From positions 1 to 64,000 of the forward strand of contig JABILX010000009.1 of assembly GCA_018654255.1 (NCBI GenBank): a DNA stretch of 64,000 nt, written 5' to 3'. Shown here one piece after another: positions 23,389 to 55,200 of this stretch (position 1 is its first letter; each line of letters begins with the position of its first letter). A program made the position numbers and the translations under genes. Below the pieces are notes generated by a model, which was given only the letters and a program-made list of their open reading frames with translations, had not been told where the DNA came from and ran no database searches. The stretch is from Candidatus Peregrinibacteria bacterium. Its GTDB lineage: Bacteria > Patescibacteriota > Gracilibacteria > UBA1369 > LOWO2-01-FULL-3.

Positions 23389-25845
23389 ATGATAATGTTT
23401 GAAGAAGGAGACCATGATGGTCTTGATGGCGACGATGCTATTGAATCTGGTGAACCTGTTGACGGGGAATCGGATGTTTCGCGTGTCTTGTCTGAAGATG
23501 GGCTTATTAGAGGGGGAGATTTTCCAAGCACTGATTATGTTGTTTCTTTTGTTTCTGGGTTGCCTGAGGAGTTTGTGACAGCTCTTGCCTATAGCGAGAA
23601 GACGCGTGAAATATTTGAGCAGGTTGAGGAGGTTATTAATTGGTTGATACAGGATTTGCAAGGGGGGCGGCTTCAGAAGCGTTTTGGTGATAAAGATAGT
23701 GTTCGGGAGGGGTTGAGTATGATAGATGATGTTTTTATCAACGTGTGTAGGGTTGTTTTTTATGAGATAAAGAAAAAGCGTGAGGAATTGGGTTTTGATC
23801 ATGAACTTGTTAAAGATGATTATGTTCAGACTATTTATAATCTTCATGATACTTTGTATCTTCTCAGGGATGAGGTTCGAGATAATGGGGATAGTTATTT
23901 TTATTCACATATTATCGGGGTTCTTTTGATTTTGATACGAGAAGGTGGTTTTACCGGAGCTGTTACTCGAACTTCTGCTATTGGTCATGATACTTCTGAG
24001 GACAAGGGACTTCCTATGGCTGAACTTTTGAATATTTCGGAATACACGCACAGACTTACAGGAATACCTGAGGATGAGCTAAAGGTATTTGATAGGAGAG
24101 TTACCAATATTGTCACTGGTCTTACCAAGATTAAACGTGCTGATAAACGTGCTGATAAGCCTATGACTAAATATGAACGTCGTGAAGCTACCTCTCGGCT
24201 TTTTTGGCAGACATTTTTAAAAGAGACAAAGATTGCTCCTGTTAAATTGGCGGATAGAATACATAATATGAGGACTTTGGGTTTTAAGAAAGGGAAGGCT
24301 GGCGATGATGCTCAGGAAAGAATTTCGAGGGAGACCGAGGAGGTTTATAGTCCTGTTGCGAAAATTGCAAGGCTTAGGGATATGTATAGAAGTTTGGTGT
24401 TTGCTACTTTTGAAAATCGTAATCCACAATTTGTGGTTGATTTTGCCTACTTGCAGTTTGAGAGAAGGGCTTTGTTGGATGACTGTGCTGATGATATTGA
24501 ATCTAGTCTTGTTGCTTTGCCTGATGTTGATGGGGTTATGTTTAGAGATATATCAATTTCTGAATATGTGGATTCTCTGGATAAGTCTTACTCTGATGTG
24601 CAAATAGAGAATTTAGACATTAATTGTTTGGATTCTATGCAAGAGTGTGTGGTCTTTGTGAAAGAGGGAGATGACGATATTCTTAATCTTGTTAGTAGTT
24701 ATATTGTTGGTATTTTTGGTATGGAGCCTGCGAAGTCTTTGAATGTTGGTAAGGGTAAGAATTTGGTTGGATTTAGTAGACAGTTTGGGAAACAGCTTTC
24801 ATTTAGAATTATAACTAAAGTTGACTATAATAGAGAGATTAGAGGGGTCTATTTGGATGAAGAGGATGCTTTGGATCCATTCAAAGAACAAATCCAGTCC
24901 TTGCTTGATAGAAGAAGTGCTGGTTTGATTGATGATATTATCAAATCTGCTAAGGCTGAACTTTTGGGTAAGCCTATGCGACTTACCACACCTATGGGGG
25001 ATAAGTATGAGCTTCTGGCGGGATCTTCGTATTTAGATTTTTTGGCAGCCGTGAACCCATATGATCTTGGTAAAGCTGCTTTTGCGGAATGGTCTCGAAG
25101 TTTGGATAGCAAGGGGGCTCGAAAATGTTCTTTGTGGGATGAAATAGAGAGATCTCCTGATCCCAAGGATGTTCCTATGGTGAATGTAAGAACTTTGACT
25201 TCCGAGGAAATAGCTTCCCCAGAGAAAATGCATATTTCGCCACTTTGGCTTTTGTACTGTGTTACTCCGAAGGCTATCGGTATGGTAAAGAGTATTTTGA
25301 AGTCTCCATATTCTTATTATAGGCAAAGGGTTGATGGTGATGGGAATGGGCATTCTTCGACGGTTCTTTCTGAATCTTTGGAGGATGGGTATGAGCAATT
25401 ATATATTATTGAGAATGGAAAAAAGTGTGTTGATGAGCTGTCTGGTCTTTTTGGGGTTCGTTCTCCGAAAATTATCAAGGTTTTGAAGAATGGTGATGCA
25501 AAGAAATCAGATGATTGTCTTTTGCATGAACTTGGTACTGGAAGTGTTAATCCTTTGCGGAAATTGGTTAAGCATATTAAGCCTAGAGAGCGTTGGCATA
25601 TTTCTTTGAGTTTGTTGAATCAGCCTGGAATTATGGAGCATTTCTCTAGAGAATTTGGTAAATGTGGTTTTAGCCTTGGTGGCATCAAATCAAGGCGAAT
25701 AGGGGACTTAGATGAGAGTAAGATGTTTGTTTCCAAGCCTGCTGGTAGTGCTGATTCGATGATAGATACTTATGGATTTCTAAAAGCTTTGATCAGGTTG
25801 AGATTGGCTTATCCAGATCTCAAGGTTACTGATTCAGTTCTGTAG
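23389..25845 (+). CDS. RelA/SpoT homologue with intact HD hydrolase and decayed synthetase
   Basis: An 818-aa long-RSH protein for (p)ppGpp turnover. After an acidic N-terminus, the HD hydrolase domain (about 170-330) has its ligands: H in YSHIIGV, GHDTSEDKG (H200, D201, E204) and ADRIHNMRT (N293). The following synthetase region (about 330-520) keeps the outline but has lost the GYRSLH-type and EVQIR catalytic motifs. A TGS-like segment (TPMGDKYELLAGSSYLDFL, near 530) and a C-terminal ACT-like domain (ISLSLLNQPGIMEHFSREFG, near 750) complete the architecture. I predict a hydrolase-only enzyme. TATAAT at 23380 suggests a near-leaderless start, perhaps at the second ATG (23395). Its partner is the synthetase-type protein at 33188. 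Confidence 0.8.
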   Translation: MIMFEEGDHDGLDGDDAIESGEPVDGESDVSRVLSEDGLIRGGDFPSTDYVVSFVSGLPEEFVTALAYSEKTREIFEQVEEVINWLIQDLQGGRLQKRFGDKDSVREGLSMIDDVFINVCRVVFYEIKKKREELGFDHELVKDDYVQTIYNLHDTLYLLRDEVRDNGDSYFYSHIIGVLLILIREGGFTGAVTRTSAIGHDTSEDKGLPMAELLNISEYTHRLTGIPEDELKVFDRRVTNIVTGLTKIKRADKRADKPMTKYERREATSRLFWQTFLKETKIAPVKLADRIHNMRTLGFKKGKAGDDAQERISRETEEVYSPVAKIARLRDMYRSLVFATFENRNPQFVVDFAYLQFERRALLDDCADDIESSLVALPDVDGVMFRDISISEYVDSLDKSYSDVQIENLDINCLDSMQECVVFVKEGDDDILNLVSSYIVGIFGMEPAKSLNVGKGKNLVGFSRQFGKQLSFRIITKVDYNREIRGVYLDEEDALDPFKEQIQSLLDRRSAGLIDDIIKSAKAELLGKPMRLTTPMGDKYELLAGSSYLDFLAAVNPYDLGKAAFAEWSRSLDSKGARKCSLWDEIERSPDPKDVPMVNVRTLTSEEIASPEKMHISPLWLLYCVTPKAIGMVKSILKSPYSYYRQRVDGDGNGHSSTVLSESLEDGYEQLYIIENGKKCVDELSGLFGVRSPKIIKVLKNGDAKKSDDCLLHELGTGSVNPLRKLVKHIKPRERWHISLSLLNQPGIMEHFSREFGKCGFSLGGIKSRRIGDLDESKMFVSKPAGSADSMIDTYGFLKALIRLRLAYPDLKVTDSVL

Positions 25846-31415: not shown

Positions 31416-33143
31416 ATGGATGATAATGCAAAAAATAGAGATGAGGTAGTTCCTTTTCGAGATGATGAAAAGGAAAAATCTCAGGTAAAAAAGAGAAGAA
31501 GGCCTAGAAAAAGGTCTAAAAAGTCTGAGTCTGTGGTTAAGAAAGATGAGGTTTTTAGCGATAAAAAGCCCACGAACCCGTTTTCGGCTCCTGTTGGTGC
31601 ATTTGATCAGCCTCTTGAGCCAGATCCATCTGGAGCGCCAGATTTGTCGGCGGCACCTCTTCCAACGGCTAGTCAGCCTGATACAAGTTTTCCTGCCTTA
31701 GATCCTGTGACTCAAAATGTTGCTGATAAAGAGGATGAATTTAGATATTCTAAGACTGGGCCTGGAGAGGAAAAGGATGCTAATAAGACTGACAAGACTG
31801 AAGATTCTAAAAAAGTTGAAGAAAAACCTTCTCCTTTCATGACGGAAGAGCCAGTTCAGCCTTTTTCGGCACCGGTAGGTCCTCAGGTTCCTGGAACATT
31901 GGATGAAAAAGTTTTGGATGAGAAACCTATTGATCAAGTGGGTCGAACATCTTCAATGCCGGAAGAATCGATAGAGGACAAAGATAAAGAAAAAGAAAGA
32001 ATGATTGAAGATAAAGAAAAGGATGAAAGTATTAAGGCAACTAATGCAACTCCTTTTGAGGAAGGGGCTGTTAAAGAATATGAGCAAAACGATCCGTTAA
32101 CTACTGGACCTGCTGAGGTTATGAAAAATTCTTTGCCTGAAGCTCAGGGAGGGGGTGTCTCTGATGTCGTTGTGGCGGATGTGACTGATGGTGCTGATGG
32201 AGTGGGGGATTCTTTAGAAGACGATAAACCTAGTTTCTGGGATATGTTGGAGGAGGCTGGGATTGAAAAGAGACATATTATAATGTTGGTTTCTGTTATT
32301 GGTGTGATTATTGTTGTGGTTTTATTTTTTGTTTTTGGTGGTTACAAGCTGTTCACAGGTTCAGATGATGATTTTGTGCAGAAGCCGAGTGTAGAACAGG
32401 ATGATGAACCTGCTGCAGACAAGCCTTCGGTCAAGAAACCTTCAACTGGTGATTCTTCAGTTGACTCTGAATTTGATCAACATTTTGCTCTTTCTGGGTT
32501 GGTTAACTCTTATATTTTTGGACTTGAGTTTTCGAGTTATAGAGTGTTGCCTGGATTGAATTTGAATCCTGTAAGTTACGGTGGATCTACTTCTGCTGTT
32601 GATGCTTCTTTGATTGCTGGACAGAATCTGGGAGTTTCAAAGGAGTCTATTTCTTATTATATAGATTTGGTTAGAAGAATTGATAATGCTATCCATGTTG
32701 ATGTTTATAATTATTTAAATCAATATGTTGATAGGCGAGCTGTTCTTCAGGAGCATTTGGCTTTGTTAAATTCATTGCTTCTTGAAGCAGAATCTTCAAA
32801 GAATGTTGTTATTCAAGAATTGAATTCTTTGGATGCTGACTATGAGGCGACTTCATTGAAGAAAGATGAATATGAAACGAAGTTTTTTGATTCGATGGGC
32901 GGCTATAATGGTGATATAGCTTATGATTATTTGGAGTTGTTTGTTGAGGCAAGTCAGATTCGTGTAAAACAAAAAGCCTATTTTAATGCCTTGAATAGTG
33001 TGAATGGTTCTCTAGATGCGGCAATCTCAAGTTTGATTCCTAGAATCCAAGATATTTCTGTTAATGCTGAAGCTTTGATAAAGGGAGTCCGAGTGTTTGA
33101 GGTTACTGGTTCCAATATTGATGCAATTATTTTGCAGCAATAA
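31416..33143 (+). CDS. single-pass membrane protein with long disordered cytoplasmic part
   Basis: A 575-aa protein. Residues 1-280 are low-complexity, charged and proline-rich with two related motifs (NPFSAPVGAF and QPFSAPVGPQ), predicted disordered and cytoplasmic. One membrane helix (about 288-312, IIMLVSVIGVIIVVVLFFVF) is followed by an outer part with a DKPSVKKPS linker and a helical C-terminal domain (about 350-575) with coiled-coil character. I do not recognise the family. It has its own promoter and precedes the synthetase-type RSH gene. Confidence 0.65.
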   Translation: MDDNAKNRDEVVPFRDDEKEKSQVKKRRRPRKRSKKSESVVKKDEVFSDKKPTNPFSAPVGAFDQPLEPDPSGAPDLSAAPLPTASQPDTSFPALDPVTQNVADKEDEFRYSKTGPGEEKDANKTDKTEDSKKVEEKPSPFMTEEPVQPFSAPVGPQVPGTLDEKVLDEKPIDQVGRTSSMPEESIEDKDKEKERMIEDKEKDESIKATNATPFEEGAVKEYEQNDPLTTGPAEVMKNSLPEAQGGGVSDVVVADVTDGADGVGDSLEDDKPSFWDMLEEAGIEKRHIIMLVSVIGVIIVVVLFFVFGGYKLFTGSDDDFVQKPSVEQDDEPAADKPSVKKPSTGDSSVDSEFDQHFALSGLVNSYIFGLEFSSYRVLPGLNLNPVSYGGSTSAVDASLIAGQNLGVSKESISYYIDLVRRIDNAIHVDVYNYLNQYVDRRAVLQEHLALLNSLLLEAESSKNVVIQELNSLDADYEATSLKKDEYETKFFDSMGGYNGDIAYDYLELFVEASQIRVKQKAYFNALNSVNGSLDAAISSLIPRIQDISVNAEALIKGVRVFEVTGSNIDAIILQQ

Positions 33144-33187: not shown

Positions 33188-35413
33188 ATGGATAAGTGGT
33201 TTGACGCTATGATTGACGATATTAAGGTTTATCTTCCTCAAGTTGATAGAGATAGACTTCTTTCTGCTTACACTTTATCTGAAACGATTTATAAAGATAG
33301 AATCAAGAATGAAAAATATAATAATTTTATTTTTCGTCCTAGGGATGTTGTGAAAAACTTGATTTCTTTGAAGCCTGATGAGGATACAGTTGTTGCAGCT
33401 TTTTTGTATGACCTGTTGGATTCTGGCAGATTGTATCTTAGAGAAATTGAAGAAGAATATGGTGAGGGTGTTGTTAGTTTGCTTGAGGGATTGCAGATTT
33501 TGAAAAGTATAATGGTTGTGAGATATCAATCTACTGACAAGCTTGATCTTCTTCGTAAACTTTTCTTGGTTATGGCGAAAGATATTAGAGTTTTGGTTAT
33601 TTTTCTTTCCGTGAAAGTTATTCAGATGGATTTACTTGAAGACATTCCTTCTGATTGTAGTGAGGCTTTTGCGACGGAGGTACTTGAGATTTTTGTTCCT
33701 ATTGCGGCTAGGCTTGGGATTTATAGATATAAAATGATTTTGGAGGACAAAGGTTTTAAGATTTTGCATCCTGATGACTATAAAAAAATTCATACCCAGG
33801 TTGGTGAATTAGTTAAGAAGAAAAATGATTATGTAGACAGTGTTTCAAAGATTTTGGCTGATTTTTATAGTGACCATGGGTTTGGTGATGTTAAGGTTTC
33901 AGGGAGGTTGAAAGGGTATTACAGTATCCATAACAAAATGAAAAAGAAGGGACTTCCTACTATTGATGGGATTTATGATGTTTTTGCTTTTAGAGTTGTA
34001 TTGCCTGCGTCTTATAAGGATGGTATAGAGGAAGATGTTTCAAGATTATATGAGTCTTTGGGGATGCTTCATAGTGCCTGGAGACCTATTCCGAGTAGAT
34101 TCAAGGACTTTGTTGCTGTGCCAAAGCCGAATGGTTATAGAAGTTTGCATACAACTATTGTTGGGTTGTCGGATGGTACTATTACTTATCCTGTTGAGGT
34201 GCAGATCAGGTCAGATAATATGCATGAAGAGGCTGAATATGGTGTAGCTTCACACTGGCTTTATAAAGATACTCGTGGCAAGGGATTGGCTATGCTTAGA
34301 AGTCATGCTGAGTGGTTGAAGAATCTTGCGTTTTTGCATTCTGATACGATGAAGGATGAGAAAGTTTTGGACAGTATAAAATTGGATTTGTTTGGTGATA
34401 GGATTTATGTTTTGACACCCAAGGGTGAGGTGAAAGAGTTACCTTCGGGAGCTACTTCTCTCGATTTTGCATACCTGGTTCATACTGATATTGGGCATAG
34501 ATGTTCTTTGGCAAAAGTGAATGGTAAGCCTACTCCTTTTGGCACACAATTGAAGAATGGTGATACGGTCGAAATAGTTACTAACAAAAACACTAATCCG
34601 AAGCTTGAATGGCTTTCTATAGTGAATACTAGTCAGGCCAAGGTTAAGATAAGAAACTGGTTTGCTTCGCAGGATAAGCAGCGGCATGTTAAGACTGGTC
34701 GTGAATATATTAATGCGCAGTTGGGGAAGTTTGGAAAACCATTTTTGACGCCTTCTCTTCTTGGCTTGAAGAAGTTCGAAGGTAGCAATTTGACTGTGGC
34801 TGATAGAGAGAGAATTTTGGAGGAAGTTGGGAAGGGGGTAAAAACTGCTTCTTCTGTTGTGCGTAAAATGTTTAGTGATGAAGATTTACTTGCTTCTGAT
34901 AAGAGAGAGATTCTTGAGAAGAAAGATAAGAGAAAAATGCAACCTACTTCTGAAAGATTGGAGGATAAAATTTTGCTTGGTGGGGTTGATGGTTTGAATG
35001 TAAATATTGCGAAATGTTGTTTGCCGAATTTTGGTGAGAAGATCATTGGTTATGTTTCTCCAGTAAAGGATAGTGCTACGATCCACAAAAAGAATTGTTC
35101 TTTGGTTGGCAGGATGAAGAAGGATCGGATTGTTGATGCTAGTTTCAAAAGTGATGGTGATGTGTCGAGACAGAAGATTTACAGGGTGAGTATAAAGATT
35201 GAGGCTGATAGTAGGGTTGGTTTGCTTGGAGATATTGGTTCAACGGTTGCTTCAAATTCAGTCAATATAGTTAATCATTTTTCGAATGTTGATAGTGATG
35301 GACTTGCTATAGTTAAAATGCTCTTGGATGTTGCTGGTCTTGACCAGTTGGAGAGAGTTTTGGATGCTTTGGAGAAAGTAGAGGGGGTACGGTTTGTTAA
35401 AACGGAATCTTGA
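33188..35413 (+). CDS. RelA/SpoT homologue with intact synthetase and decayed HD domain
   Basis: A 741-aa long-RSH enzyme that should make (p)ppGpp. The N-terminal HD region keeps the fold but not the chemistry: the first His is Arg (FRPRDVVKNL), HD reads YD (FLYDLLDSG, Y74-D75) and the ADRxHN motif is VKVIQMD. The synthetase is intact: GYYSIHNKMKKKG, DVFAFRVVL, PKPNGYRSLHTT and EVQIRSDNMHEEAEYG (catalytic Glu near 336). Then TGS (LTPKGEVKELPSGATSLDFAY), a CC-containing zinc-finger-type segment (VNIAKCCLPNFGEK…KKNCSLV) and a C-terminal ACT domain (about 665-738). It ends in TGA and overlaps recO tail to tail by 17 bases. Confidence 0.92.
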   Translation: MDKWFDAMIDDIKVYLPQVDRDRLLSAYTLSETIYKDRIKNEKYNNFIFRPRDVVKNLISLKPDEDTVVAAFLYDLLDSGRLYLREIEEEYGEGVVSLLEGLQILKSIMVVRYQSTDKLDLLRKLFLVMAKDIRVLVIFLSVKVIQMDLLEDIPSDCSEAFATEVLEIFVPIAARLGIYRYKMILEDKGFKILHPDDYKKIHTQVGELVKKKNDYVDSVSKILADFYSDHGFGDVKVSGRLKGYYSIHNKMKKKGLPTIDGIYDVFAFRVVLPASYKDGIEEDVSRLYESLGMLHSAWRPIPSRFKDFVAVPKPNGYRSLHTTIVGLSDGTITYPVEVQIRSDNMHEEAEYGVASHWLYKDTRGKGLAMLRSHAEWLKNLAFLHSDTMKDEKVLDSIKLDLFGDRIYVLTPKGEVKELPSGATSLDFAYLVHTDIGHRCSLAKVNGKPTPFGTQLKNGDTVEIVTNKNTNPKLEWLSIVNTSQAKVKIRNWFASQDKQRHVKTGREYINAQLGKFGKPFLTPSLLGLKKFEGSNLTVADRERILEEVGKGVKTASSVVRKMFSDEDLLASDKREILEKKDKRKMQPTSERLEDKILLGGVDGLNVNIAKCCLPNFGEKIIGYVSPVKDSATIHKKNCSLVGRMKKDRIVDASFKSDGDVSRQKIYRVSIKIEADSRVGLLGDIGSTVASNSVNIVNHFSNVDSDGLAIVKMLLDVAGLDQLERVLDALEKVEGVRFVKTES

Positions 35414-36047
35414 GTGCCTTTTCAGTTTCAGTTTCTATGATGTCTTTTATCAATCTTTTGAGTTCGATTGTTTCTTCGTCGGATAGTTTTATTTTCAGGA
35501 TGTTTTTTAGTGGATTTGCTTGGATGTAGTAGAAAAGTTTTTTGTATTTGTGTGTTATTGGAGTGTGGAATCCTTTGAATTCTTTTAGATCTGGGAGGAG
35601 TCCTAGGTTGTCGAGTAATTTTATGAGGAATGTTGTTGTTATGAGGAGGGCTCTGTCTTCTGTTTTTGCTAATGTTGTGATTGTTTCTTCAACAAGGTCG
35701 AATACCTCTGGAGTGGTTTCTTCTTCGAGGAGCAATTCATCTGTGATTTTTGCTACGATCATCGCGTTTGTGATTCTTTCTAGGTTGTCTCGAAGGTTTC
35801 TGTGAGAATCATTTTGTTCGATGTCTGTCAGGATTGTGCTGTTTGGACCTCTGTACAGGTTGAAAGTGCAGGTGTTGAGTGTTTCGACTTTACCTGCAAA
35901 TCTAGAGTTTGGTTTGTGTGAGCCTTTTGCTATTACTTTGATTTTTCCGTGATCTCTGGTCAGGATGAAAAGGAGTTTGTCAGTTTCTCCTAGAGTTTTT
36001 GAGCCTAGGATAATGCCTTTTGTTTGGATGTTTTCTCTTTTCTTCAT
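35397..36047 (-). CDS. recO: DNA repair protein RecO
   Basis: Recombination mediator that loads RecA onto gaps with RecR/RecF. The 216 aa begin with the RecO OB-fold (KGIILGSKTLGETDKLLFILTRD-type, residues 10-75, ending KGSHKPNSRFAGKVETL) followed by a helical domain. The four-cysteine zinc finger of many RecO proteins is absent and the protein is shorter than the usual 230-250 aa. The start shares one base with the ftsX stop (TAATG), so the genes are translationally linked. Confidence 0.9.
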   Translation of the reverse strand: MKKRENIQTKGIILGSKTLGETDKLLFILTRDHGKIKVIAKGSHKPNSRFAGKVETLNTCTFNLYRGPNSTILTDIEQNDSHRNLRDNLERITNAMIVAKITDELLLEEETTPEVFDLVEETITTLAKTEDRALLITTTFLIKLLDNLGLLPDLKEFKGFHTPITHKYKKLFYYIQANPLKNILKIKLSDEETIELKRLIKDIIETETEKALKIPF

Positions 36048-43892: not shown

Positions 43893-46800
43893 TTAGAACG
43901 CAACTTTGAGTTGAGTGAGGTCAAGCAGTTCAGATAGTCCTGGAGGAGTGTTGAGGAGGAAGTTCTGGCTAAATTTGATAGTTACAGAACCTTGTTCCAT
44001 CGAAACACTTCCTGAGTATCTTCGTTTGCTGAATAGATCAGCTACGTTTCCGATCAGGATTCCGTTGAATGTTAATGGGTTGTATGAGAATCCTTGAGAA
44101 GTTACCCTGCCGTCATCTGTTCCATCTGTGTCGATTACGATGTATACACCGTCGAGGCGAGTAACTTCAGGGGCGATATTGATATCTCCGTCGATTACTA
44201 TGAAGGCTGCAGATGGTACGTTTTTTGGATTCAATGGTCCAAATACATCTAGAGGTTCATACGTGATGTTACCTGTTATATTCAGATCACCTCCTTTGAT
44301 TATGTATGTTTGAGCTGCAGGATCTGAGACGGTTAGACCTGGGATTGTTATATCTTTGTTTGTGTAACTGTAAATATTTGTGTTTGTAGATGGAGGGAAT
44401 TGATTTGTTATCAATGTCTCGTGCCATCTAGATAGATTTGAGATGTTATTATTGATCTGGTTAACGATGTATTCTTGCTGCCAACTTTCTGCTACTTCTG
44501 CTTTCATTTCACAGATTGTACTTGAGAAGTTTTTTAGTGGATTGTCGAATACTCCTGAACTTGCTCCTTCTACATTTGAATATTTACAAATGTCGTGTGT
44601 TGGAGTTGTTAGGTAAGCTTGGTCGCTTAAGTCTCCTGCTCCTGTTTTTGGAACTTCTTGTTCTTCGATCTCTTCGATTTGGATTGGAGTGATACTTGGA
44701 CCTTGGATGTTCTTTTGTTCTGAACAATAAGCTACATCGATACCTGAAGTAAGCTCTGATGAGAAGAATACGTCTCCACCTGCACGAGTTAGTATGAATG
44801 GGCAGATTGCGACTACTATTGCATCGTCGTCGTCTGAATCTACGTCGTCTCCTTCTAGATCATTGTCTTCGTATGTTTCGAATTCAATTTCGTTAGGGAA
44901 TTGCTCACCACATCCATCTGTTTCAGGATCTAGGTTTTGGCAAGTTTCTTGGTCTAGAGATGTTTCGTTCTTCATCTCGTAGTAGAGTTTGATTTTGTAT
45001 ACGCCTTCGATGTTATTGAATACTAATCCTTCGTCTGCGTCTGCAAATGCTTCTGCGAGATCATCTAGATCGTTTGCGTCTAGGTCTTTGTTTGTTACAC
45101 AGACTTCTGTTGTTTCTAGATCGTTTCCGTCGTATTCACAGATTTCTAGGTCATCATCGTCTTCGTTTAGGTAGGCTTCGTCTGGGTCGTTGTCGAAATA
45201 AACTTCGATCCAAAGGTTGTCTTCAAATACTAATTCACCGCCTTTTGAACCTTCCAAGACTCCGTCTTCAAATTCGGTTTCTTGAATCAAGGCAGATGAG
45301 ACTCCTTTGCCTTCACCAGGTTTGAAATCGATTCTGTATGTTACATATTTACTGTCGGTAGGGAGGATCGTTTCGCCGTTATCACCTTTGTCTTTTGCTG
45401 CTATGTTGATTAGATCATCCCAGTCTTCTGCAAAATCTGAATCTCCTGGGTCATCGTCGAAGTCGCCAGGTCTTACACGTTTCTTGATTGAAGCGTCGAT
45501 CTTTTCTGTGATTTCAGGACTGATTGTAGCTTCACATACTCCTGGATCAGTTCCATCTACTTTGATGAAAACAGTGATTCCTTCATATGGGTTTTTCAAG
45601 ATGTTTGTGTATGAAGTTGAAGTTTCGTGATTGAAGCTTGCGATTCCTTCTGGATTTACTGGGATTGTCCAATTGATTGTCCAGTCGTGATTTGCAGGAG
45701 TGCCTTCTACTTCTACCTCGAAGTCTTCCTCATCTTCCTCTGGATCTAAATTCCAAGATCCGTTTGGTTTGGTTATTTTTAATTCTTCACATTCTGGGTC
45801 TGGATCTGGGTCTGGATCTGGATCCGGATCTGGGTCTGGTTTGTCTGGTTTAGGCACATAAGTAAGTTGGCTAACACATGCTGTGTTTGCTCCTTCGTCG
45901 TTTGCTCTGACTTGTACGATCCAATCTGTTTGAAGTGTTGGGCCGAACATGTAGACTCCGTCGAATGCTTTTGATTCTGAAACTATCAAAGTTGTTTCAC
46001 CATTTTCATCAGCTGTATCGTCGAGGCTCAAGTGTGAGTCATTTGCGGTAGTCAGATTGAACCTGAAATCTCCATCATAGTCACCGAGGGTTCCTGTTAT
46101 ATAGAATCTTGTTGAATCAGGCATCGAAGCAGGTGGCCAAGATGGGTCTGCGTGTAATGCAATGTTTTGACATGCGTCTTTTGCTGGAACTATGATTGAT
46201 AGGTGTTTGATACATCCAGGTTCTGTCAAAGGATCTGAAGATGTAGCTTGTAGTGTGATTATGTTCGTATGTGTTCCAGGGGTTAGGTTTTGCATTGGGT
46301 AGAAGTACACTTTTGTTGTAACTGGAGTCGCGAGTTTTGTTGTAGACCAGTTTTCGATAGGTTCTGGTATTGTAAGTGGTAGTTCTACGATTGGGATTGT
46401 GATGTCTTGTTCTACTGCGAATACTCCATATTGAGAAGTTGTTTTGTAGTCAACTTTGGTTGGTTGTCCTTCTGGAATTTCGTATTCAAGACTTGATTCA
46501 AAAATGTAAATGTCTTCGCTTGGTAGGGAAGTCATAGTTGTTTCGTCTCCAAGTGGAAGACTTGATATGTATGAAGTTATGTTGTAGTGAAGTAATTTAC
46601 AGAATTGGTCTTCTTCAGGTTCTTCTTCTGGTGGACATGCAGGGAGTTGGAATTTACAAGCTGCTGTAACTTGAGCTTCTGTGTAAGTGGTGTCTCCAAA
46701 TGCTGATAAATATCCGAAGATGTTTGTGTTTTCTGGTGAAGTGTATTGAATTGCTGTTTCTTGAGTTTCAAGTGGATTTTCTCCTGAGAACAAACCTATT

Positions 46801-49190
46801 TCTGCTGGATCTGAATACCAATTGAAAGTGGTTGATTCTTGTGGAGCTATGAATGTTTCGCCTCCTACAGACATTGTTATGTTTGAAGTAGCGATTGTTA
46901 TCGGTGTGTCTTCTGCTTTTATACAAGCTTCGCCGTTCATGGTTGTATAATCTACGTCTAAACATACTGGCGGTTCTATAATTGGGAAGTCTTCTTCACA
47001 ATTTTGTTCGTCTGTACATTCTCCAGATACTTTGATTTTGTCTGCTCCTGCGGTTTTTGCGTAGAAGAATACTGATTCTCCTTGGTCTGCTTTTATTCCG
47101 TTTACAGATGCAGGTTCATCACAAGGTGGTTCTGGTGCAAGGTTTTCTGGGAGGTCTTGTGGACCAAAAAAGAATCCTTGGTCTCCGAGATCGAGTTTTT
47201 GGAAGTTATTTCCAGTATTTGCATCTACTGTTATTCCGATATCTCCTGCATCGATGAAGTCTGTATTTGGATTTATGATTGGTCCTAAATCTCCTGAATC
47301 TGCAAGTAATACGCTTGCTAGGAAATTTGAATTTTTGCTTGTTGATTTCGCAGGTAAATTTGCGATTATGTTTTTTATGAATAGTCCAATCTGATTCATC
47401 CCTTCGCATTCGATTTGGTCGAAAGGATTGTCGTATGCGTTTGGATATTTTTCCAAGAGGTCTTCTTCTGTTTCGAAGAACTCTCCGTAGTCTTCATCTG
47501 TGACTTCGTATAAGATTTCGTTGCTCCATGGGTTTCCGTTGTACGAAAGAGTTTCTGCACTAAATTCAGAAACACTTCCAACGGGGATCTGAGAAGGTCG
47601 TTCGACGCAGATGTCTGTACATTCATTGTCGCAGACATCGAGAGTTTCGATACAAGTGGTAGATCCAGTTGTAACTTCAGGTGCTACTCCGTCCGTAAGT
47701 GTGATTTTTTCAATGGTTACTCCTTGTTCGTTTGTGAAGTAAGCTGTCATATTTCCAAGTCCATAGAATTGTCCTTCGATTGTGTCTTGGTTTGATAGGA
47801 GAATTGTTACTGGGAAGTCTGTGAATTCGTTTGGGTTTATCAATGGAGTTGTGATTTTGAGTTTTGGTTGAACGTCTGGTCCTTGGAATCCGGCTGTGAA
47901 TGTGACGTATTGATTAGAAGTGCTTCCGTCGTCCATGTCCACGTTGACTTCGAAATTTGTGTATTTAGGGTCTAGGCTACAAGTGTCTTCTCCCTCTGTT
48001 TCTGTGAGGGTTAGGGATTCGCAGGCTTTTTCTGTGATTACTGGGTCTTCGGGTTCGCCTTCCACATTCACGACAGCTCTGAAGAAGACCCATCCTGAGT
48101 ATTTGAAACATCCAGGATGGTTGTTTACCTCTACCCATACTTTGTTGTTTCCGTCACTTTTCAATTCGAATCTTAAACTTTTGTTATATGTGTAGTCATC
48201 TAGTGATTCGTGTTGGCTCCATGGGATGTCTTCTTCTGTTGAGCCAACAGGACTTTCTATTGGGACCATTGCTGTGTAGACATCGGAAAATAATTTTGTG
48301 ATATGTTCTACTTCTTCACCTTCTTCATTAGTAGTTACGTTGTAACTTATCCATTCATTTGGTGTATCAACTGTCCCATCGTTATCATAGTCTGTCTCTA
48401 TGGTTCCATCTCCATCGTAGTCATAACCTAATTCGACTACTGCGACTGGATCTTCGCCTAATTCTAACGTTATAGTTTGTCCTGGTAATGGCTCTATTAC
48501 TACGCTGTCACTTGCTGTGTTTGCTGTAGAACCTACTGCTCCGTCAACGTCTTCAAAGAAAATGTAATCTCCATTTTCGTAATTAAGTGTATTTTCAAGC
48601 GTGTTTTTGTATGAATTGTCTTCTGAGTATATAAATCCAACTGGCCTGGTTGGATTTGATACATCTATTCCGATTCGTGTTTTGTATGCTGTAACTTGTT
48701 CAGCTGGAGTTAATAGCCCTTTACCGTCATATGGATCAGTACCATTGTTGTGAAATCTGATACCAAAGACTAGTCCGTCCCCGTCTTCAAACCCGTTAAA
48801 TCCTTCTAATCCCATCCATCCTTTTGTGTATAAAATTTCTCCGTCGTCGGATAGGACGAATTCATAATCTTCAGGTCCAACTTTTTCAGCAAATGCTACC
48901 CAAGCGAATTGTCTTTCATCAAAATAAGAACCTCCTTCAACCCCTTCTATGCCTTCGTCTGCTGGATTGTACTCCTGAGTGTTGTCATAAAAGAAATTGT
49001 TGTAACTTGGATATCCAAATCCTGGATGATCTTTTTCTCCACTGATATCTTCGTAATCCCTTGATGGGCTGAATGTTGCCTCAAAATCATTGGAATCTGA
49101 AATTGAGTAGTTTTCTGCTGCATAGGCTGGTGTTATTAGTGTTGATGTGAGTAAGCCTATTGCTACAATGTTTGATATTAACTTTTTCAT
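43893..49190 (-). CDS. giant secreted surface protein (1765 aa)
   Basis: A 1765-aa exported protein with a signal peptide (residues 1-24, ending TPAYA before AEN). The N-terminal 350 residues are acidic and hold a calcium-type Asp repeat (YDYDGDGTIETDYDNDGT, near 260). The rest is a chain of β-rich Ig-like segments with spaced cysteines (SYLP- and TDEDYGEFF-type regions), a PDPDPDPDPDP linker (about 1115-1135), then more β domains and a C-terminal part (about 1530-1765) with IKGGDLNITGNI, FIVIDGDINIAPEV and NTPPGLSELLDLTQ. From memory, this last module recurs in Patescibacteria surface proteins. VPKTG occurs internally but is not followed by a membrane helix. No anchor is visible. Likely cell-surface or secreted. 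Confidence 0.85.
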   Translation of the reverse strand: MKKLISNIVAIGLLTSTLITPAYAAENYSISDSNDFEATFSPSRDYEDISGEKDHPGFGYPSYNNFFYDNTQEYNPADEGIEGVEGGSYFDERQFAWVAFAEKVGPEDYEFVLSDDGEILYTKGWMGLEGFNGFEDGDGLVFGIRFHNNGTDPYDGKGLLTPAEQVTAYKTRIGIDVSNPTRPVGFIYSEDNSYKNTLENTLNYENGDYIFFEDVDGAVGSTANTASDSVVIEPLPGQTITLELGEDPVAVVELGYDYDGDGTIETDYDNDGTVDTPNEWISYNVTTNEEGEEVEHITKLFSDVYTAMVPIESPVGSTEEDIPWSQHESLDDYTYNKSLRFELKSDGNNKVWVEVNNHPGCFKYSGWVFFRAVVNVEGEPEDPVITEKACESLTLTETEGEDTCSLDPKYTNFEVNVDMDDGSTSNQYVTFTAGFQGPDVQPKLKITTPLINPNEFTDFPVTILLSNQDTIEGQFYGLGNMTAYFTNEQGVTIEKITLTDGVAPEVTTGSTTCIETLDVCDNECTDICVERPSQIPVGSVSEFSAETLSYNGNPWSNEILYEVTDEDYGEFFETEEDLLEKYPNAYDNPFDQIECEGMNQIGLFIKNIIANLPAKSTSKNSNFLASVLLADSGDLGPIINPNTDFIDAGDIGITVDANTGNNFQKLDLGDQGFFFGPQDLPENLAPEPPCDEPASVNGIKADQGESVFFYAKTAGADKIKVSGECTDEQNCEEDFPIIEPPVCLDVDYTTMNGEACIKAEDTPITIATSNITMSVGGETFIAPQESTTFNWYSDPAEIGLFSGENPLETQETAIQYTSPENTNIFGYLSAFGDTTYTEAQVTAACKFQLPACPPEEEPEEDQFCKLLHYNITSYISSLPLGDETTMTSLPSEDIYIFESSLEYEIPEGQPTKVDYKTTSQYGVFAVEQDITIPIVELPLTIPEPIENWSTTKLATPVTTKVYFYPMQNLTPGTHTNIITLQATSSDPLTEPGCIKHLSIIVPAKDACQNIALHADPSWPPASMPDSTRFYITGTLGDYDGDFRFNLTTANDSHLSLDDTADENGETTLIVSESKAFDGVYMFGPTLQTDWIVQVRANDEGANTACVSQLTYVPKPDKPDPDPDPDPDPDPDPECEELKITKPNGSWNLDPEEDEEDFEVEVEGTPANHDWTINWTIPVNPEGIASFNHETSTSYTNILKNPYEGITVFIKVDGTDPGVCEATISPEITEKIDASIKKRVRPGDFDDDPGDSDFAEDWDDLINIAAKDKGDNGETILPTDSKYVTYRIDFKPGEGKGVSSALIQETEFEDGVLEGSKGGELVFEDNLWIEVYFDNDPDEAYLNEDDDDLEICEYDGNDLETTEVCVTNKDLDANDLDDLAEAFADADEGLVFNNIEGVYKIKLYYEMKNETSLDQETCQNLDPETDGCGEQFPNEIEFETYEDNDLEGDDVDSDDDDAIVVAICPFILTRAGGDVFFSSELTSGIDVAYCSEQKNIQGPSITPIQIEEIEEQEVPKTGAGDLSDQAYLTTPTHDICKYSNVEGASSGVFDNPLKNFSSTICEMKAEVAESWQQEYIVNQINNNISNLSRWHETLITNQFPPSTNTNIYSYTNKDITIPGLTVSDPAAQTYIIKGGDLNITGNITYEPLDVFGPLNPKNVPSAAFIVIDGDINIAPEVTRLDGVYIVIDTDGTDDGRVTSQGFSYNPLTFNGILIGNVADLFSKRRYSGSVSMEQGSVTIKFSQNFLLNTPPGLSELLDLTQLKVAF

Positions 49191-49215: not shown

Positions 49216-52200
49216 TTATGGGAATAATTGAGATCCTCCATCACTATGAGCTGGTGCTTGGATTCCTCCGTCTCCTGCTGATGCTACGTCTCTGCTTGCG
49301 GTTTGAGCTTTGCTAGCATCAACTGGGCGTGTAGGTTGTGTTCTGGCTTCATTTTTTAGTGGTTCTGGATTCTCTTTCGGCGGTTTCTTCTTATCTTTGA
49401 ACCTAGCCCCAATTCCCAAACAGAAGTCTATGTATAGTTTCTGAATTTGTGGGTCTAGTTTTTCGAAGGTTTCGCTTTTAACTGTTATTGTTTCGCCGCC
49501 TTTCTCAATCTTTACTATTCCATCTTGGACTGCTTCGAATCCAGCGTTACCACAATCTGACCAAGAGATACTTCTTGTGGCTGATTTAAGATGGAATGAG
49601 AATTTAACGTCTTTATACTCTATTACAGTAGGTTCTCCTGCTAGCTGATTGCTTCTGAATTGTTCGCATAGTTTTTGGAATGCTCTAACTGCAGTTAGGT
49701 TTCCTGCGTAGTCGCCTATAATTTCTGGGTTTTTGAAGCATTTCATCAGTCTTTCGTAGTTTTCGTTTCCAAGTGCGAACACGATTGCTCCGGTGCTTCC
49801 GACCCTTCTTGCAAATTCTGATTCGAGGAATTGTTTGTATCCTGGGATTCCTGCTAATTTCTCAACTGGACTTGCTGTCTCAAGGAGGACCTTGCCCATG
49901 TCGGATTTTGTTTCGTACATTGTAGCTGTTCCCTTTAGGAATCCAGCAGGTCTGACTGTGCGTTCTGCGGTTGCTATTGATTGGAGTGTTCTTGCAACTG
50001 CTGGAGTGTGTTTACCTCCTTTTTCTGTTGGGGCCTTGTGTGTTCCGTATAGGATTGTTGATCCTCGCCATAGGCTTTCAACTTCTAGTGTAAGGAGTGG
50101 GTGATTGATCAAATTTTCTACTTTGGTGTTTAGTGTGACTTTTGGTACGTGTGATTTTATGTCTAGCACCATCTTTTTGGCCACTTTTTCACCTGTTAAT
50201 CCTTCTTTGACTTCGACTCCTCTGTCTTTCAATCGTTTGATAGCTGCATCGAATTGTGTCTCGAATGCTCCTAGGACGTAGTCTGCGTTATCGAATAATA
50301 TTTCTCGTGTTGAGTTGATGTATTTTACAAATTTTTCTTTTCTCGATTTGTCTTTTAGGAATTCTTTTGCGGCTCGTGGGCCCATTTCTGGGAGGGCTTT
50401 TAAGTGGCCTTCTTCAATCCCTGCATCTTTCAAGGCTTTTGAAGCTAAATCGATGAAGTATCTTCGAGTTAGGTATTGAGCTGCTAAGTTTCTTTCTAGA
50501 TCAGACAGGATTCCATCTTCACCAAGTAATTCTTTGCTGAATAATTTCTTTTCGTTTTCAGCAATGAAAGCAACTACACTTCCTGATTTGTCGATTCTTG
50601 CTGCTAGTTTCTTGTAGAAATCTTTGTCTTCAAATGTTTTGTCCATAAATTCTTTGATTGCTTGTTGAACGTTCTCTTCTGTTTGTTCGAATTTTGTTGC
50701 TGGGATTGAGTCTTTGCCTTCTTCGATCAAAGCTATCTTGTCTAGAAGATCTGCATCAGAAATAGAGGTGTCGATTTCTTTTGCTCGAGCTTTTTTGATT
50801 TCTCTTTGGATTTGTTCGTTTTCTATAGACTTCCATCCTTGCACATCGAAGACTGTCTTGCTTGGTCCAAGTTTGTCAGCGTTTTCACCTCTCTTGACTG
50901 CCCATTTGTATCCTGGGAGTTTCTCGAGATACGCTGCTTCGTGTTTTTGAATATAAAGTCTGTCTCGACCTCCTCTAACTGATTTTCTTTTTTTGATTGT
51001 TATTACGTCTTTTACAGAAGATCCGTGCATTGCTGTCACTGCTGGGAAGAAGAATCTCTCTCTTGTAATGATAAGATTTTCTAGGTTTCCTTCGAGGGCT
51101 AGGCCTTCTCCTTTTCTTGTGTGAACTGCTAGCTCTCCTGCCAATTCTGGGTCAGGATGGACTTCCATTTCTATTTTTCCTCCTAAACTTGGGTCGTCTG
51201 CGTCGAAAATGTGAAGGATTCTCTCTGTACCGACATTTAATTCTTCAACTCTCATGTTTATATCCTTGAGCTTTGAATTTCTGAAGTTTCTATCCGATAG
51301 GTTAGCAAAATCTAATTGGACTTCTTTAGGTTCGCCTATAAGTCTACCAATTCTTCCGTCTGCTGTGATGTATGCTTGTGACATGTTTTCGACTCCTATT
51401 CCTGTGAGTGTGTTGAATCCTAGCTTTTCTTCTAGTTTGTCTTCTACGGCCATTGCCGAGTTGATATTGAGCAGTATTGCTTCTGATTTAAGTAATGGGC
51501 GAGAGACTGTTCCTGCTGGAATTGAGAATTTGATGTATGCAACAGGGAACCCTATTACTATTTCTGATACAGGGATCCAATCTGTTTTTGCTAATGACTT
51601 TGAAGCTGATTTTGCGGCTGATGCCTGCATGTCTGTCAGCTGGAATTTGAGTAGAGAAATTATTATTTTGTTTGACATTTCTACTTTCCCACCAATCTTT
51701 GGGCTGTCGAATAATGGTGCGAATTGAGGAATGTTCTTTGCTTCTGCTATTACTGCCTCTTCTGCGCCTGCTTTTCCGGCATCGTATTCTCTTAATAGAG
51801 CTCGGATTGTTTCGAATCCTTTTTCTTTCACGGTTTCATCAAGTTTGAAGTCAACTGCTTTGCCATAGTTTCTGCCAACTCCGTATGCAAGTGTTGGGAG
51901 TGGCACGAATCCGAATGATGAATGGGATAGTAAACCCGCTATAGCAATTCCTTCGTATGCTGTGTTGCCATAGGCATGTCTGTTTTGTCCTCCTAGTAGG
52001 AGTCCGACTCCACCTGTGACGTTTGCGGCTACTGCTATTCCTAATGTGAATGTAGAATTTCCGGCTTTGAATGAGTAGGTGAGGCCTAGTCCTCCTCCAA
52101 CTTTTCCTTCTCCAGAAACGCCTGCACTTACTACGAGGCTAAAGCCTCCACCAAGATCGATAGGGCATCCTGCTCCAAATAATGCACTTGTATCTCCGCC

Positions 52201-55200
52201 ACCTGCAATTACAGCTATTCCTGCTTGGAATTTACTTATTGCGGTTTTTATTGTGCTCATTTCTGCTTCTGTTGAGATAGCCCATTCTATCCACTTTCTC
52301 ATGTCAGGATTTTTGGGCATTTTGATCGTATCCATCTGTTCTTCGTACTTTGTGTTGTATTCGATGAGGAGACCTAGTTGGAATGCGTCTTTTCGTTCTT
52401 TTAAGAGTTTTCCTACACCTAGGCCTCTTAATCCTAGTTGTCTTACTTCTAGTTCTTTAAGTCTTTTGTTGAATTCACTTCCAGGTTTGAGTTGTTCTGT
52501 GACTTCTTCTTGAGTTGGAGCTGCTCCTTTTTTGCCTCCTTTGCTTAGATACATTTGGAGGGCACCTAGTTTTATGAATTTATTTACTTCTTCTTCTAGT
52601 TTGGCGATGTTTAGAGTTTTGAATCCTCTTACTGTGTCTACGTCATAATATTCGCCGTGGTACATCAAGTAGTTGAATGCAGCGCCTGATGTCATTTGCT
52701 CTTCCAGGCTGCTTTTGTGTTTAAATAGCGTATTCCCATCGAGTTGTGTCATGTACGTGAAGTCTTTGATTCCTTTACATCCGTCGACAATTTTCTTAAC
52801 CCAATTTCTGCCATCTCCTCCGTTACAAAGATCTTTTAATTGTTTGATTGCTTTTGTTTGGCGATCGATGAGTGGGAGTTTGTTTCTTAGGATATCCATG
52901 TCTGTGTGTTTTACCCAGACTCGGGCACCGACTCCGTATTCATCCCATTCGTAGTGACCTTTGTAGTTCTCGAGAGTTCCATCTACTATAGATTGAACGT
53001 TATCGAGAATGTATAGAGGTTCTCTTTTAATTTTTCCTGGTAATTTTGTGAGTAGGATTTGATTTTCCGCATTGATTTTCAAGCATCCCTCTTTTACTAG
53101 TGTTTCTGGGCTTATTTTTAGGAAAAGTGCTTGAAGGAACATCTCATTGTCGATTTGATCGACGTATTTGATGTATTTGTTTTCTAGATCTCCTTCCATG
53201 ATTCTTTTTCTGAAGCCTGCTGTTACTTGATCTACTAGTTTTTGGTCGATACCAATTTCCAGATTTTCTGAATTGTGGAATTGAGAAACTTCACTGAGCT
53301 TGAATCTGTTTCCTGCTGGAAGTGAGAAGTCTGAATCCGTTTCTTCTCCTTGTCTCATCATCTTTAGGATCAAATTTTCCACAGTTTCTAGGGTGTCTTC
53401 TTTTTCAAGCTTTGTAAAATCTAGGTTTTCCAGACTTTCTAGAAGTTCGATTGTTGGCTCAACAATGCTTGAGAAGACTTTGTCCATGAATTCTGCATGG
53501 AATTCGTTTTTTTCTGCTGCAACTAGGCCTTTTTTTATAAATTCTGCTAAGTTGTCTGGGTCGAGCAGGTAGCCTAGTCCTACTGTTTTCCCCATGATTG
53601 TAGATAGGGTTGCTGCGTCTATTGCTGGGTCGAAAACACCTTGTAGATTTGGTTGTGCAAATTTTAAGACTTCTTTGTAGTCCACTCTACGGTTATCCCA
53701 TTCTGTGATCATTTTCACAGCTAGCTTTGGTATTTTATGTTTGGAACTTACATTGAATCTTTGGAGTGCTCTCATGACTGCTTTGTTTCCGTCAAATAGT
53801 GCCCAGTTGTCTAGCATTTCTCCTTCAAATAAATGTTTGTCTTTGAAGCCTTTGATTTTGTATGTTTTTGTGAGTTTACTGAGCATGTGTGCTCTGTTTT
53901 GTTTTTCTGCTAATTCTTCTGCTTGTGTTAGGCGAGCGCTTGTTTTGAGTGTTTTTCCTCTTTCTTTGAAGGTTTCGTAGTCTTTTTTACTTAGATAGTT
54001 CTGTAACATTCGACTTGTCTTGACCAACAGGGCGTCTTTGTTCTCTGGATTGTCGTATCCGTGTTCTTTTGTCCAAGTTACTTTCACTCCATGAAAATCA
54101 ACGGTGATGTTTTCGTAGAATTTACCTAGATCTTGTGACATTGATTTTCCGTGTTCGGAAATTGCTTGAGTGATTCCTTCGAGTGTTGAGTAAACTGGAT
54201 TATTTTCTTTTGCGTCAAGTTTTTCTTTTACCAAGCCCATGTGTAGGTCTAGGTTGTCTTGGACGTATTTTGGTCCTTGGCTCATCAAGAATCTGTCCAT
54301 TGCTTTTTCTTTCTCTGAAAGTTCTTTAACCATTGTGACTTCAGCTCCAGACATTTCTTCGATGTCTTGTTCTGTATTACGGACTATGTTTGCGTGTTTT
54401 CCGAGGATGACACTTTCTTTTTGACCTATTCCGTCATATTTGGATCCTTTTGGGTCTACTCTGAGACCAGAATCGATGTAATATTCATCTGTATCTGCGT
54501 ATCTCCAGATTGCTCTCATCTGTGGAGTTCGTTGTTTGATTTCTCCGTATATGAGTTTGGTTCCTTTTTTTGTTGTGATTGTTAGGGTTCTCAAATTTGT
54601 ATCTGGGTCTTTTACCAATTTGATTTCCTTCACGATTTTGTCTTGGATTTTTTTTACTGCGACTGTTGGGGTTTTTGGGCCTTTCTTGAGATGTTCTTCA
54701 ATAGGTTTAACAGCTGATTCAGCCAGTATTTCTTCTTCTACCATTCTTTCCTGTCTTTTTTCTTCAGCTTTTTCTGTAGCTCTTTTTAGTGCTTGTGAAT
54801 CAACTTGTTTTTTTAATTCTGGTTCTGCAGGAGTGTTGTTTGCGTTGAAGAGAGTTCCTGTATGATCTGTGTATAGGGCTTTCTCCTCTACTTTTGCTAC
54901 GAATTCTTTGCCAGACATTGATGCTAATGATATTGGTTCTTCTTTCTCATATGTGGACTCTACTAATTCTTTTATTTTTGTGAATTTTGGTGTTGTGAAT
55001 TTTTTTGAAGGTTTTCCTTTTACTGTGTGTCCTGGTTTTGAAACTGGGTTAGGTCCGAGGACTTTGTAATTATATGTTCCATTTTCGTAGGATAGTATGA
55101 TTTTTGTTGTTTTCCCTGGGGGATCTATATTTCCGATGATGATTGTGTATTGTTCCGGATTTTCTCCTACAATTAATTCTTTGTGCTCTTTTTTCATTTG

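Follow-up and report, generated by a model that had tools for sequence, protein, structure and literature searches.

A predicted RelA-like (p)ppGpp synthetase of separate origin in Candidatus Peregrinibacteria

A long RSH protein with a degenerate HD domain

The window analyzed here is the whole stretch of 64,000 nt at positions 1 to 64,000 of contig JABILX010000009.1 (assembly GCA_018654255.1, Candidatus Peregrinibacteria). Two long-RSH paralogues recur in the order to which this genome belongs: type B, represented in the window by a 741-residue protein (Table 1), and type A, represented by a protein on another contig of the same assembly (C7). The domains of the B protein follow the order typical of long RSH enzymes (HD, synthetase, TGS, ACT), with the HD domain degenerate. 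Pfam scores are 112.3 bits for RelA_SpoT, 81.6 for HD_4, 73.6 for TGS, and 48.5 for ACT_4, and the protein reaches 512.3 bits against the NCBIfam model TIGR00691 (spoT_relA), above the curated cut-off of 499.2. Its top solved relative, Escherichia coli RelA, scores 368 bits, and the match to the RSH family is thus not due to chance. A contig-level scan with the protein returned a single relative, a Bacteroidota record. AlphaFold2 models, computed without alignments, of the B protein and of a second RSH-related protein of the window, encoded from position 23389, were poor, the two mean pLDDT values being 33.0 and 34.3.

Table 1. Coordinates of the features discussed, as positions in the 64,000-nt window
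Feature	Position	Strand	Basis
Third RSH copy; HD 6/6, synthetase 0/11, TGS- and ACT-like remnants	23389..25845	+	Alignment and profile comparison
Protein with one strongly hydrophobic stretch; 575 aa, no Pfam match, 44 bp upstream of B	31416..33143	+	ORF
Clade B long RSH, predicted monofunctional (p)ppGpp synthetase [hS]; ATG start, 741 aa	33188..35413	+	ORF and profile matches
Pseudo-HD domain; aa 44-178, RYDDSV vs HHDEDD	33317..33721	+	Pfam and alignment
FLYDLLD (aa 72-78) replacing LLHDxxED	33401..33421	+	Alignment
Synthetase domain; aa 239-362, 11/11 scored residues, RFKD motif	33902..34273	+	Pfam and alignment
TGS domain; aa 406-465	34403..34582	+	Pfam
Zinc-type motif CC...H...C; C610, C611, H633, C637	35015..35098	+	Motif and orthologue alignment
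ACT domain; aa 663-737	35174..35398	+	Pfam
RecO, convergent with B	35397..36047	-	Pfam
Giant ORF, 1765 aa, no Pfam match at 0.001	43893-49190	-	
Adjoining giant ORF, 2223 aa, no Pfam match at 0.001	49216-55887	-	

Six hydrolase and eleven synthetase residues were scored in an alignment of the B protein with nine reference RSHs, with residue names following streptococcal Rel numbering. All eleven synthetase residues are kept, and only one of the six hydrolase residues survives, the series reading RYDDSV where bifunctional enzymes have HHDEDD. A first-pass annotation of this DNA, made from the sequence alone, had proposed an intact synthetase beside a lost hydrolase, and the counts agree with it. 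It had also listed synthetase, TGS, zinc-type, and ACT parts, each of which was recovered through the Pfam matches, the residue count, or the CC...H...C motif, whose two first cysteines, histidine, and last cysteine are invariant across a nine-member orthologue alignment. Its reading of the HD domain holds in most details: the first His is indeed replaced by Arg (Arg50), and the expected ADRxHN is absent, the stretch reading SVKVIQM. Where it had FLYDLLD replacing the HD motif, only the His has changed, to Tyr, and the Asp is retained.

The RYDDSV series sets the protein apart from bifunctional Rel[HS], in which the HD domain is intact, and the combination of an inactive-looking HD domain with complete synthetase residues is that of RelA[hS]. 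PMC3153485 (Atkinson 2011) gives an acidic EFDD motif as the mark of RelA; the B protein has RFKD at this place. One alternative is that the HD domain is alive and works with other residues, in keeping with its sizeable HD_4 score and the retained equivalent of D78. The changes, however, affect three of the usual four ligands of the metal and both of the acidic residues used in catalysis; moreover, in family f1 no region of the B proteins changes faster than HD, and the substitutions differ between genomes. A live domain is thereby made highly unlikely.

The neighborhood of the B gene is widely shared. Among 35 B loci of order relatives, 31 have a homologue of the 575-residue protein as the immediate upstream neighbor, and in 32 recO is convergent beside B. 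No homologue of the tested window neighbors was found beside 27 of 29 A loci, the other two having one. Because the conserved neighborhood includes genomes in which B retains its HD residues, the domain decayed in place.

The RSH complement of the genome

In the genome (1.237 Mb, 9 contigs), RelA_SpoT matches twice and HD_4 four times. The Rel encoded on C7 is a 779-residue member of clade A with complete residue sets (hydrolase 6/6, synthetase 11/11) and three hydrophobic segments according to hydropathy. Another HD_4 match, on contig C1, is an HD-only protein of 298 residues (L005 1060-1956, minus strand), the C-terminal part of which is cysteine-rich and carries CxxC pairs.

The third long copy lies in the window itself, and its synthetase is as nearly erased as the first-pass annotation had described, with none of the eleven residues left beside a full HD set (6/6). 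That annotation had further cast this protein and B as a reciprocal pair arising from one early duplication, and end-to-end profile alignments with both clade A (99.9%) and clade B (99.7%) are in line with such an origin, as are the opposite residue counts. The role of hydrolase partner is, however, filled across the order by clade A, on C7 in this genome, and a pairing of two window proteins is the wrong frame because the C7 Rel and the C1 HD protein are also present. A search of 88 other order genomes gave relatives of the third copy at 75 bits or above (with one value of 74.9, that of G182, rounded up) in only three (G018, G155, and G182), weaker matches being mostly ordinary HD domains. 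The gene sits between FecR-like and MltG genes, as it does in G018; in the outgroup G026 these two genes overlap and nothing lies between them. On an HD+TGS tree, whose branches here are 3.5-5.2 changes per column long, the tests allow the third copy to group either with A or with B. A reciprocal pair from a single duplication is therefore very unlikely. What stands of the early-duplication claim is that an old duplication did take place inside the lineage, giving clades A and B; it is not supported for these two window proteins as a pair.

The HD region of the third copy is 28% identical to that of its nearest relative (G018), compared with 72% between the two A proteins of this genome and G018. 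As judged from these alignments, it is a very fast-evolving copy of putative hydrolase type and not the orthologous partner of B. The division in this genome is not fully reciprocal, since its A protein keeps 11/11 synthetase residues. Instead of a pair of the type [Hs]+[hS], the genome has [HS]+[hS], as in E. coli, given the intact-looking synthetase of A.

Paralogues A and B across the order

The relatives are mostly draft genomes. Both Pfam domains (RelA_SpoT and HD_4) were present in all 41 of the genomes made up of the present one, 24 of family f1, and 16 of the same order. A later set came from 39 further order genomes, with 60 newly retrieved loci and a second reading of one earlier locus; its 61 proteins (32 A, 29 B), assigned by best BLAST score rather than by tree, with closest calls of 362/322 and 360/324, gave the same picture as the earlier rows and are included in the order totals. 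Nine near-duplicates were restored for these counts, which leave out the rows that were short, truncated, confined to HD, or strongly divergent.

Phylogenetic analysis separated the long RSHs of the class into clade A, which has 36 rows and includes the C7 protein, and clade B, which has 59 and includes the 741-residue window protein. Both clades appear in the main tree (105 rows, after removal of 23 that were truncated or unread, short, confined to HD, strongly divergent, or near-duplicates) and in a second tree built from synthetase and TGS columns only (104 rows), in which A and B each form one side of a branch with support of 92; many other branches are weak. Class A and B together form one side of a branch supported at 93/95. 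In each clade, the protein of this genome is sister to that of G018, the pattern that vertical descent would predict. Thus, on tree evidence, A and B are ancient paralogues.

The placement also bears on whether B is RelA proper, acquired from proteobacteria. Such a transfer would account for the same loss of HD and for E. coli RelA being the top solved match, and there is one other genome of the class, G063, in which a protein joins E. coli RelA in the tree. Nevertheless, A and B each branch apart from both RelA and SpoT of E. coli. AU tests reject joining B of this genome and of G018 with E. coli RelA (p 0.0026), f1 B with RelA and the G063 protein (p 1.9e-6), and A of this genome and of G018 with SpoT (p 2.7e-9); a single clade of all B with E. 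coli RelA is allowed (p 0.12). The gene neighbors shared by B loci across the order, including genomes with an intact HD domain, likewise argue against a proteobacterial source. An origin as RelA proper is hence extremely improbable, and is already refuted unless branch length misleads the tree. Rejection of the RelA grouping and retention of RFKD instead of EFDD together make B, on present trees, an independent RelA-like putative synthetase and not a member of RelA. The phylogeny that the first-pass annotation had called for thus separates B from E. coli RelA and leaves the third copy free to join either clade.

Several observations were made alongside in the same class. The G063 protein (G063:C21, L187), which joins E. 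coli RelA with support of 99 in the main tree and 94/86 in the analysis with the AU tests, has an EFCD-type acidic motif and is likely a transfer. The tree contains 18 class B proteins, eight of which have lost the HD residues; the genomes of these eight all have one or more additional HD_4 matches. HD_4 proteins of ~920-1100 aa occur in families f19, f20, and f30 (G043, G044, G054, G064, G078, G094, and others), and short RSHs of ~440-475 aa (L086, L081, and L110), with a degenerate HD domain and intact synthetase residues, apparently constitute a third type in several genomes. The synthetase frames of some class members read through TGA; TGA recoding occurs in Gracilibacteria.

Within the order, the two clades have changed in opposite halves. 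Every B synthetase is complete (11/11 in 76 of 76), each with an RFKD-type motif, and of the 68 B proteins with all HD columns, 56 retain at most four of the six HD residues and 12 retain all six. In clade A, by contrast, HD is nearly always whole (6/6 in 66 of 68, 5/6 in two), and the synthetase varies: among 70 proteins, 35 have 11/11, seven have 10/11, and 28 have 9/11 or less. Mean pairwise identities in f1 point the same way, being 0.69 for HD and 0.50 for synthetase in clade A, and 0.40 and 0.60, respectively, in clade B; the single Rels of class family f21 have 0.63 and 0.60. It might be argued that B has another job, for example with another nucleotide, and that its HD loss has nothing to do with (p)ppGpp balance, given its long isolation and a product that is only predicted; the unbroken conservation of the scored synthetase residues and motif in all 76 B proteins speaks against this, and we consider it barely credible.

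The C-terminal regions differ as well. In a strict search, the zinc-type motif was found in none of 67 order A proteins and in 58 of 70 order B proteins. Crude hydropathy placed at least two hydrophobic segments in the last 170 residues of 54 of 67 A proteins and of none of 70 B proteins; 13 of the 67 A proteins have no tail of two or more such segments. Lacking the zinc finger and usually bearing a hydrophobic C-terminal tail, clade A would no longer read the ribosome and is probably membrane-tethered.

The order preserves several stages of this divergence. As the sole RelA_SpoT protein, B retains both residue sets in full (HD 6/6, synthetase 11/11; G026, G034, G038, G133, and G149), as does A where it stands alone (G032 and G182). 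Seven genomes (G027, G036, G083, G093, G147, G180, and G181) have A beside an HD-bearing B; thus, A does not force HD loss in B. The present genome and G018 have an A with both residue sets beside a B without HD, and in many f1 and f2 genomes an A missing some synthetase residues accompanies a B without HD.

An HD-lost B is always found beside A or another HD-bearing long RSH, save in three genomes of 76-79% completeness (G010, G017, and G024), in which no other HD-bearing long RSH was found. In raw counts, B has lost HD with A present in 51 cases and without a scored A in 10, is intact with A in seven and without it in five, and is unscorable in three. Seven of the 10 genomes without a scored A hold an HD-bearing long-RSH frame or part not scored as A: a split frame (G006), a contig-end piece (G021), a divergent 943-residue protein (G035), and those of G120, G126, G153, and G160. 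The G006 case (G006:C46, L128) is a clade-A gene in two frames of 224 and 572 aa, reflecting either an assembly error or an interruption of the gene between its HD and synthetase parts; the G035 protein (G035:C31, L146) is a long RSH with HD 6/6, synthetase 3/11, and eight hydrophobic segments. Fisher's exact test on hand-checked counts of HD loss in B against the presence of a partner (58, 0, 7, 4; G149, 79% complete, omitted) gave p 0.0004, a value not to be taken at face value because the genomes are related. Parsimony on undirected trees with many weak branches gave seven HD-state changes in B and, at a threshold of 9/11, 10 synthetase-state changes in A. In this lineage, the hydrolase of B decayed before the synthetase of A.

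A divided alarmone system and its known counterparts

Judged by its observed residue content, domains, orthology, synteny, and tree position, the B protein is very probably the vertically inherited Rel of the lineage at its ancestral locus, in which HD decayed, the synthetase and a ribosome-sensing C-terminus were kept, and hydrolysis was left to A. According to PMC9974481, the TGS, zinc, and RRM/ACT parts of RelA serve ribosome sensing, and a pseudo-HD can act as a regulatory domain in RelA. By analogy, B would make (p)ppGpp on detecting a starved ribosome through its TGS, zinc, and ACT parts, and its dead HD may serve as a regulatory pseudo-domain. Clade A, with its HD kept, zinc finger absent, and hydrophobic tail, would remove the alarmone, perhaps helped by the third copy and the C1 protein; in many relatives, A would also have lost synthetase function along with its residues, giving [Hs]+[hS].

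This kind of split is known, since three comparable cases have been described. In RelA[hS]/SpoT[HS] of beta- and gammaproteobacteria, as set out in PMC3153485, one copy of a duplicated Rel likewise lost HD and kept synthetase, TGS, zinc, and ACT parts, and the other kept HD. The division of labor that the first-pass annotation had likened to RelA and SpoT is borne out at the level of predicted function; its origin, by the AU tests, is separate. B has RFKD and not EFDD, and its partner A lacks the zinc finger and usually has hydrophobic C-terminal segments. The RelA[hS]/SpoT[Hs] pair of Moraxellaceae, for which PMC9974481 presents the Acinetobacter baumannii SpoT structure, is a full split with a pseudo-synthetase hydrolase and resembles many f1 and f2 relatives; the present genome differs in that its A keeps 11/11 synthetase residues, and the order differs in that several stages persist within it. 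RshB of Bacteroidetes, again from PMC3153485, is a lineage-specific duplicate of Rel whose HD domain has strongly diverged, as in B; the Bacteroides sequence included in the tree, however, groups with its own phylum and not with B. Bifunctional Rel of Bacillota and others shares domain order and RFKD with the window protein, which has lost HD.

The division of RelA and SpoT is the textbook case of a regulator divided after duplication, and splits of this type are known from few lineages. An open-access literature search, in which absence is weak evidence, gave among the papers listed no work on RSH duplication in these bacteria or on a long RSH with a transmembrane tail. An independent recurrence with surviving stages, together with a zinc-less, hydrophobic-tailed hydrolase partner, therefore looks unreported. 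More tentatively, and with rather less than even confidence, we suggest that the alarmone system of these ultra-small bacteria may be divided spatially as well as chemically. A soluble synthetase that reads the ribosome (B) would stand opposite a membrane-embedded hydrolase (A) that has lost ribosome sensing and reads the state of the envelope or of host contact through its helical tail. Such an arrangement would have been reached repeatedly, with every step still alive in one family or another: first [HS] by itself, then [HS]+[HS], then [HS]+[hS], and lastly [Hs]+[hS].

The order thus offers a second, independent natural experiment in dividing a regulator, with the intermediates alive, in genomes of ~1 Mb that have otherwise been losing genes. 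Two questions become directly accessible: which half is the first to decay, and whether, in the hydrolase, a membrane tail takes the place of ribosome sensing.
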